Of a stretch of 64,000 nucleotides of DNA, positions 52,216-53,219 are shown in pieces. Source of the stretch: Candidatus Methylomirabilis sp. (GTDB lineage Bacteria; DYJV01). Each line of letters opens with the position of its first letter. Positions within the stretch are counted from its first letter, which is position 1. The stretch spans positions 22,646 through 86,645 of the forward strand of contig DYJV01000001.1 of assembly GCA_020722945.1 (NCBI GenBank), in the 5' to 3' direction. The position numbers and the translations under genes were made by a program. The notes beneath the pieces are model-generated. The model was not told the origin of the DNA and made no database searches. It worked only from the letters and a program-made list of their open reading frames with translations.

Positions 52216-52950
52216 ATGGATTTTTCTATTGCAAATATGATTGATGCTTCAGCTTTTTTTGGAGCAGGTGTATGTATGGGGACAGGTGCTATAGGAGCTG
52301 CCATAGGTGAGGGTTATACTGCTGGTGAAGCTGTCAATGCTATTTCTCAGCAGCCTTCAGTCTCTCAAAATATTCTTAAGACAATGCTTATAAGTATGGC
52401 TGTTGCAGAGTCATCATCTATATTTGCATTAGTTGTTGCGATAATACTTGTTTTTTCAGATTTCACCTCTGGCAATTTATATACAGCCACAGCCCTTATC
52501 TCTGCAGGTCTATGTATGGGTATAGGTGCTTTTGGTTCAGGTATAGGATCAGGTTTTCCTGGTGGGACGGCTTGTAAAGGTATTGGAAGGAATCCAAAAG
52601 TTAGTAATCAGATTGTTACTAATATGCTTATTGGACAGGCTGTTTCTCAGACTCCAGCTATATTTTCAATGCTTGTAACTTTTATACTTATTTACAAAAG
52701 TTACTCTTTGGAGATCACAATTACTTATATTTCAGCTATTTTAGGTGCAGGATTATCAATGGCTTTTGGAGCTATTGGACCTGGTATTGGTGGTGGGATT
52801 GCTGCTGCTTACTCTACTGAGGGTGTCTCCAAAAATCCAGCACTCTCTAATGTCTTGACACGACTTATGTTGATTGGGCAGGCTGTATCCCAATCCACAA
52901 GTGTCTATGCTTTGGTTGTATCTTTTGTTTTACTATTCATAGTTAAATAA
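52216..52950 (+). CDS. Triple-hairpin ATP synthase c subunit with one ion-binding glutamate
   Basis: 244 residues made of three tandem c-type hairpins of about 80 residues (six helices) against the usual two helices. Hairpin 1 keeps E32 (IGEG) and the ion-site E65 (MAVAESSSIFA). Hairpin 2 has S112 (IGSG) and Q145 (QAVSQTPAIF). Hairpin 3 has G193 (IGGG) and Q226 (QAVSQSTSVY). So only one of three hairpins can carry an ion. V-type and some archaeal rotors show this pattern, and Acetobacterium has a double-hairpin form, but a triple form with one site in an F-type operon is unusual. It lies four bases after atpB and 20 before the standard c gene. Confidence 0.93.
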   Translation: MDFSIANMIDASAFFGAGVCMGTGAIGAAIGEGYTAGEAVNAISQQPSVSQNILKTMLISMAVAESSSIFALVVAIILVFSDFTSGNLYTATALISAGLCMGIGAFGSGIGSGFPGGTACKGIGRNPKVSNQIVTNMLIGQAVSQTPAIFSMLVTFILIYKSYSLEITITYISAILGAGLSMAFGAIGPGIGGGIAAAYSTEGVSKNPALSNVLTRLMLIGQAVSQSTSVYALVVSFVLLFIVK

Positions 52951-52970
52951 AATTTTTATAGGAGGAGAAA

Positions 52971-53219
52971 ATGGACATAAGTGGTGCTGAAATTGTAAAA
53001 GCTGCTTCATTTTTGGGAGCAGGAATATGTATGGGTATAGGAGCTATTGGACCTGGAATTGGTGAAGGTTTTGCAGCAGGTAAAGCTTGTGAAGGTGTTT
53101 CGCGTAATCCAGAGGAAGCAGGGTTACTTACAAGGACAATGCTGGTTGGACAGGCTGTATCGGAATCTACAGGGATATATTCTCTTGTTATAGCTCTGCT
53201 TCTGATATTTGTTGTTTAA
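52971..53219 (+). CDS. atpE: ATP synthase F0 subunit c, Na+-type
   Basis: 82 residues, one hairpin. The ion site is E65 in [12 protein letters not shown]. With V63, S66, T67 and Y70 it copies the Na+ coordination set of the Ilyobacter c ring at the same residue numbers. Position 32 is Glu (GIGEGFAAG) where Ilyobacter has Gln; the E32/E65 pair is the two-carboxylate variant known from Fusobacterium. The loop RNPEE is normal. GGAGGAG precedes the ATG. It would share a ring with the triple-hairpin protein encoded just upstream, or form alternative rings. Confidence 0.95.

Follow-up and report, generated by a model that had tools for sequence, protein, structure and literature searches.

A three-hairpin c subunit with one ion site beside an ordinary c subunit in an F-type ATP synthase operon, and a family of multi-hairpin c subunits with runs of siteless hairpins

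The window, by which we mean the whole stretch of 64,000 nucleotides analysed here, contains a complete F-type ATP synthase operon with the gene order atpI, a, triple c, c, b', b, delta, alpha, gamma, beta and epsilon. The genes and sites discussed below are as follows, in window coordinates.

51170..51535, + strand: AtpI (PF03899)
51537..52211, + strand: subunit a, AtpB, of the Na+-type clade, with the essential arginine retained (ISFRLFGN)
52197..52215, + strand: weak ribosome-binding site of the triple gene, AAAAGGATAATCAG, -5.4 kcal/mol
52216..52950, + strand: triple-hairpin c, 244 residues, three PF00137 stretches; E65/Q145/Q226, with E/S/G at position 32
52309..52410, + strand: hairpin 1 site codons, E32 (52309-52311) and E65 (52408-52410), both GAG; residues 66/67/70 are S/S/F
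52549..52650, + strand: hairpin 2 dead site, S112 (52549, TCA) and Q145 (52648, CAG); 66/67/70 equivalents are T/P/F
52792..52893, + strand: hairpin 3 dead site, G193 (52792, GGT) and Q226 (52891, CAA); 66/67/70 equivalents S/T/Y are retained
52956..52970, + strand: strong ribosome-binding site of the single c gene, TATAGGAGGAGAAA, -10.2 kcal/mol
52971..53219, + strand: single-hairpin c, 82 residues, normal, one PF00137 stretch; E32, V63, E65, S66, T67, Y70
53300..53725, + strand: subunit b', GTG start (PF00430)
53740..54348, + strand: subunit b (PF00430)
54345..54887, + strand: subunit delta (ORF, homology)
54892..56406, + strand: subunit alpha, the only one found in the genome
56419..57273, + strand: subunit gamma
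57309..58715, + strand: subunit beta, the only one found in the genome (TIGR01039 over cut-off)
58734..59132, + strand: subunit epsilon

A CheX-like gene (PF13690; window 50639-51103) lies immediately upstream of the operon, and a similar ORF occupies the same place in a sister genome (L007:3321-3713). The window's genome also carries genes for Rnf, a usual Na+ pump.

The 735-base ORF of the triple c encodes three separate PF00137 stretches (E 1.2e-41). The original prediction had described three c hairpins in tandem, with the ion-site glutamate kept in hairpin 1 only, a parallel loss at position 32 and a normal 82-residue c subunit next to it; all of these points were borne out by the PF00137 stretches and by the codons. 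Re-reading of the DNA found no glutamate codon at the ion site of hairpins 2 and 3, and the single c has a GAA codon at both residue 32 and residue 65. The Na+ ligand set of the single c is complete as judged from its residues, and hairpin 1 of the triple c has E32, V63 and E65 but S67 and F70. The c subunits thus appear to carry the Na+ ligand set, and Na+ is their predicted ion.

A model of the triple c was produced with AlphaFold2 on a 23-row alignment and consists of six long helices (pLDDT 95.7, pTM 0.90). The c1 subunit of Acetobacterium woodii was the best solved match both by sequence (5.8e-27) and, for the model, by fold (Z 19.1, 1.5 A over 162 residues; Foldseek 1.5e-8). The fit of the model at 1.5 A over two hairpins hints at a similar ring curvature and leaves the number of hairpins in the ring, N, free.

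Alignment of the three hairpins with other c hairpins, as had been suggested, matched each of them to its positional counterpart in other multi-hairpin proteins: hairpins 1, 2 and 3 are nearest to the first, second and last hairpins of those proteins and not to each other, and the hairpin classes of the triple proteins share only about 41-42% identity with one another. From these comparisons the hairpins are judged to be old and orthologous by position, and a recent duplication or a misassembly is ruled out by the positional orthology of such divergent hairpins. Chance and misassembly are likewise excluded because both the gene order and the E/Q/Q pattern recur in the sister genome and 80 relatives are built on the same principle. 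Pairs of close relatives gave dN/dS values of 0.04-0.16 overall and of 0.03-0.15 for the inner blank, i.e. siteless, hairpins; the blank hairpins, being under strong purifying selection, are therefore maintained and not decaying.

A search for other genomes with the atpB - triple c - atpE order, also suggested at the outset, was successful: the sister genome, the only further genome from the window's phylum in the comparison, has atpI - a - triple c - c in the same order, with a triple c of 241 residues (57% identical) and a single c of 82 residues. In another class, four genomes carry a form that has four hairpins or is cut off at its end. Among 84,980 named genomes scanned, 279 encoding stretches were found, and the best 80 of the 279 were parsed into hairpins. 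These 80 come mostly from Desulfobacterales, with 2-6 fused hairpins beside a normal c, and also include Ca. Celaenobacter (Cloacimonadota), Ca. Theseobacter, one Latescibacterota genome and one Bacillota genome. Cultured isolates are represented by Desulfonema magnum (EQE), Dethiosulfatarculus sandiegensis (EQQQE), Desulfosarcina cetonica (EQEE), Desulfatibacillum alkenivorans (EQQE) and Desulfatitalea alkaliphila (EQQQQ). The commonest patterns in the parsed set were EQQE (28) and EQQQ (21), followed by EQEE and EQQQQ (6 each) and EQQ and EQE (4 each), and further patterns reach EQQQQE and EQQQQQ. Dead sites are glutamine in 191 of 196 cases, and the adjoining single c has Glu65 in 83 of 83 readable cases. 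A separate broad sample of 366 genomes gave a strong match in 19, mostly a multi-hairpin c beside a single c; four of these proteins lacked any carboxylate over the part that was read and stood beside a normal c. The siteless forms are SQQ (L139, from a single-contig, complete genome), GQQQ (L133), GQ (L143) and the fragments QQ (L144/L147). On this comparison of sequences the triple c is no lone oddity but a member of a large family with 2-6 hairpins and 0-4 sites, found in several phyla and widely distributed among anaerobes. No relative of the triple c was found in viral contigs.

Several members deserve separate mention. The six-hairpin c at L122:5495-6970 reads EQQQQQ, with five consecutive blanks, and that at L118:5983-7458 reads EQQQQE, its last Glu lacking both residue 32 and a donor face. 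L053 and L101 have a multi-hairpin gene followed by two single-hairpin c genes, like A. woodii. Two-hairpin c subunits with both sites intact (EE) stand beside a single c at L102:1186-1950, L107 and L135, the order of the two genes being reversed in L102; such EE forms are possibly an early stage of fusion. Two near-identical small genomes encode, directly after subunit a, a 317-residue four-hairpin c with the pattern E/Q/E/D (L011:1006-1956 and L146:1453-2403); they have no adjoining single c, and the protein is distant from the triple-c family.

In the solved Na+ sites of Ilyobacter tartaricus and Enterococcus hirae, one chain gives Glu65 and residue 32 and the neighbour supplies Val63, Ser66 and Tyr70, and in E. 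hirae NtpK hairpin 1 serves the site on hairpin 2 within one chain (PMC2359735). The family follows this geometry. Residue 32 tracks Glu65 of its own hairpin (128 with both, 194 with neither, 9 mismatched) and Tyr70 tracks Glu65 of the next hairpin (44 and 186 concordant, 8 and 2 discordant), the cells of both tables being drawn from related proteins and hence not independent. Thr67 likewise tracks Glu65 of the next hairpin, and both Tyr70 and Thr67 are inversely related to Glu65 of their own hairpin. Several of the exceptions to the next-hairpin rule lack residue 32 as well. When mapped on a subunit a tree, changes of the last Glu65 were inferred 14 times, and in 7 of these cases Tyr70 of the preceding hairpin changed on the same branch, always in the same direction (P ~2e-6 under random placement). 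Hairpin 3 has Thr-Tyr in EQQE proteins and Pro-Phe in EQQQ proteins.

The triple c of the window fits the rule exactly, with S-S-F, T-P-F and S-T-Y in its three hairpins. In nearly all multi-hairpin proteins, that of the window included, residue 70 of hairpin 1 is Phe instead of Tyr; this Phe faces hairpin 2, whose dead site accounts for it. Of 81 proteins, 77 retain Ser/Thr-Thr-Tyr in the last hairpin, 34 of them without a Glu at their own last site, and the siteless proteins with a readable end (n=4) retain it too. Retention of this face would be expected if the ring neighbour were another chain with a live Glu, and to judge from the residues that neighbour can, for the siteless proteins, only be the single c. 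The coupling between neighbours could serve as a rule for predicting, from sequence, which hairpins adjoin in the ring of any hybrid rotor.

The translation signals also differ between the two c genes. The triple gene starts 4 bases past the atpB stop (median gap across loci, 3 bases). Mean ribosome-site strengths were -3.9 kcal/mol for the multi-hairpin gene, -4.8 kcal/mol for subunit a, which is a one-copy subunit, and -10.5 kcal/mol for the single c, whose site was stronger than the multi-hairpin one in 79 of 81 loci. Taking ribosome-site strength as a proxy for copy number, one multi-hairpin subunit and many single c subunits would be expected per ring.

We consider it likely that the 244-residue protein occupies three positions, as one covalent segment, in a mixed c ring that binds Na+, the ATP synthase being otherwise an ordinary F-type enzyme. 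The mixed ring is supported indirectly by the coevolution of the ligands, by ribosome-site strength and by the fold match of the model to A. woodii c1; from these we infer the presence of the protein in the ring, its single copy, Na+ as the ion and a lowered ion/ATP ratio. The ring would most likely contain one triple segment with single c subunits on both sides. The site of hairpin 1 would be completed by the preceding chain, hairpins 2 and 3 would leave two adjacent positions that carry no ion, and the Val/Ser/Thr/Tyr face of hairpin 3 would contribute to the site of the single c that comes next. With one triple segment among its N hairpins, a ring would carry N-2 ions per turn, or (N-2)/3 per ATP; if N were 11, which is an assumption here, this would amount to 9 ions per turn and 3.0 per ATP. 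A lower ratio means a smaller phosphorylation potential at a given ion force and lets the enzyme raise a steeper gradient when it hydrolyses ATP. As of 2013 the known Na+ F-type rings had 11 hairpins (PMC3692424), the ion/ATP ratio of A. woodii is 3.3 (PMC5662883), and a low ratio has been viewed as an adaptation to low-energy life (PMC7911925). Of the earlier claim that a mixed ring lowers the ion/ATP ratio, the mixed ring thus gains indirect support from coupling, ribosome sites and fold, and the lower ratio would hold if the protein is in the ring.

How such a rotor would pass its blank sector bears on the direction in which it runs. In the fused c10 of Bacillus PS3, a single E56Q abolished ATP synthesis, according to the account of Mitome 2004 in PMC8809890; therefore at least two consecutive blanks should be harmful in a rotor without a suitable adaptation. 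These rotors either have means of crossing gaps or serve chiefly as pumps. Ten genomes with blanks (G061, G148, G088, G231, G143, G136, G372, G374, G375 and G378) have one F-type a gene and one F1 beta each, in a count that covers mostly drafts and leaves A/V-type enzymes aside. Since the hybrid is the only F-type synthase found in these about ten genomes, it probably makes ATP there, and the suggestion that the arrangement favours ATP-driven pumping loses ground. The same genomes speak against the idea, which we think improbable, that the blank sector is a one-way brake at which the enzyme stalls below a threshold ion-motive force: with no other F-type a or F1 beta detected, the enzyme must run in its main direction there. 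The PS3 result as recounted in PMC8809890 would favour a brake, as would the existence of up to five consecutive blanks (L122), but A. woodii makes ATP despite one blank, to judge by the title of Fritz and Mueller 2007, cited in PMC7793690.

It is on balance unlikely, though to be taken more seriously than a brake, that the triple c acts as a covalent arc that seeds ring assembly or sets ring size, the loss of carboxylates being tolerated and the change in ratio a side effect. The protein is translated right after subunit a and ahead of the single c, and the exact number of sites is not fixed across a family in which 2-6 hairpins and siteless forms occur, as a seed would allow. Yet simple tolerance would not account for a replacement that is nearly always glutamine, for position 32 and the neighbour's residues 67 and 70 changing along with the site, for the coordinated regain or retention of Glu in some proteins, or for the strong constraint on inner blank hairpins. 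The pattern looks like a regulated number of sites and not like decay, and seeding and a regulated number could both apply. A homomeric rotor built from the multi-hairpin c, apart from the single c ring and serving as an alternative low-gear pump, is very unlikely; hairpin 3 could complete hairpin 1 of another triple, and V-type rings are homomeric in this way, but the siteless SQQ, GQQQ and GQ forms (L139, L133 and L143) cannot make a working ring alone and yet retain the Tyr face required by a neighbour with a Glu. The weak ribosome site speaks against production in amounts that would fill a ring, and only one operon-associated subunit a is present. We give hardly any credence to a role outside the rotor, as an assembly factor or a silent gene, in view of the dN/dS of 0.03-0.15, the conserved place in the operon, the ligand coupling to neighbours and the fold match to a known ring subunit.

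Two a genes and one F1 beta were found in 17 genomes checked, the window's included, with one alpha too where this was checked. In the window's genome the second a is paired with a 105-residue c of its own, which has Ile at position 32, on another contig (C104; L191:7807-9479), where no F1 genes were found in the 18 kb read; this c is predicted from its sequence to be of the H+ type. The sister genome has the same second a/c arrangement. On the complete chromosome of D. magnum (L189, L190, L188), the hybrid Fo is an isolated module (AtpZ-like, AtpI, a, triple c, c, b', b) that lies 1 Mb from the only F1; the H+ a/c pair is isolated as well, and the F1 stands elsewhere with its own b' and b. 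The a subunits of the H+ and the Na+ hybrid kinds form separate clades in a tree with some long branches. The simplest reading would be that one F1 is common to exchangeable motors.

As a tentative proposal, held with less than even confidence, the family may form a natural series in which a Na+ ring, normal in other respects, has one covalent sector of set length, with 1-5 blanks or as a wholly siteless spacer, that lowers the ion/ATP ratio stepwise, combined, in many of these bacteria and in that of the window, with an F1 that is shared by H+ and Na+ Fo. If the sharing is real, a cell could change gear between an H+ ring and a Na+ hybrid ring. The fewest sites and the longest gap that a rotary ATP synthase can bear are of general interest to bioenergetics; the engineered ring is stopped by one dead site, whereas nature appears to use two to five consecutively, in genes that are intact and constrained, cultured sulfate reducers among the bearers. 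The patterns EE, EQ, EQQ, EQQE, EQQQ, EQQQQ and EQQQQQ together with the siteless forms offer a ready series for relating ion/ATP ratio to site number, and they bear on how anaerobes subsist on very small energy yields.

As to class, a multi-hairpin c beside a single c in an F-type operon, with fewer carboxylates than hairpins, is the arrangement of the hybrid F/V rotors. Assignment to the N-ATPases (alternate F1F0, TIGR033xx) was rejected, as beta scored 603.9 against a cut-off of 752 and subunit a 136.5 against 302, a delta gene is present and beta passes the standard atpD model; the triple c reached 130.9 on TIGR03322 against a cut-off of 130.85 when summed over its three stretches. An A/V-type K subunit was rejected likewise (54.8 against 188 and 53.7 against 211), the operon being F-type. 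Among A/V-type K subunits, that of Methanocaldococcus jannaschii has a triple hairpin, that of Methanopyrus kandleri has 13 hairpins and E. hirae NtpK shows site loss (PMC2359735), but these rotors are homomeric or single-chain and have neither an F-type operon nor a second, normal c. The single-chain c10 of Bacillus PS3 with E56Q or E56D (PMC8809890) resembles the triple c in its fused hairpins and chosen dead sites but is artificial. The single c of the window shares Glu32, Glu65, Ser66, Thr67 and Tyr70, and with them the two-carboxylate Na+ motif, with the c11 ring of Fusobacterium nucleatum (PMC3692424), which is homomeric and has no multi-hairpin subunit.

Hybrid F/V rotors as a kind are already known from A. 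woodii and Clostridium aceticum. The Brandt and Mueller survey reportedly covers twelve species, each with one F-like and one V-like c. That survey of hybrid F/V rotors (Brandt and Mueller 2015, as cited in PMC7911925 and PMC13343851) and Matthies 2014 lay outside our search, in which, in agreement with the original prediction, no triple-hairpin F-type c was found to have been described. In the searchable literature, which includes few subscription papers so that a missing report weighs little, there was no account of an F-type c that has three to six hairpins or lacks all sites, nor of the next-hairpin rule, nor of these bacteria having two Fo for one F1; PMC13343851 (2026) mentions that Desulfatiglandales have two to four copies of atpE, without resolving them. 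As far as could be searched, neither siteless subunits nor two to five blanks in succession have been described. The hybrid c1/c2 of C. aceticum (PMC7911925) comes from an anaerobe with Rnf whose F1Fo operon pairs a V-like with an F-like c, and its c1 has two hairpins, unlike the three of the window. The Na+ F1Fo hybrid rotor of A. woodii (c1 of 4BEM, with c2/c3) is also F-type, with a normal c adjoining the multi-hairpin c, and its c1 has, like the triple c, Glu in hairpin 1 and Gln in the last. It also obeys the same neighbour-ligand pattern (E-T-S..F, then Q-T-T..Y), and it carries Gln32 where the single c of the window has Glu32. Nearest-neighbour hairpin identities, over 78 columns only, gave no support to a common origin, and on this comparison A. 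woodii c1 and the triple-c family look to have separate origins. Whereas A. woodii c1 has two hairpins and one blank, the protein of the window has three hairpins with two consecutive blanks, and its relatives have up to six hairpins and five blanks.
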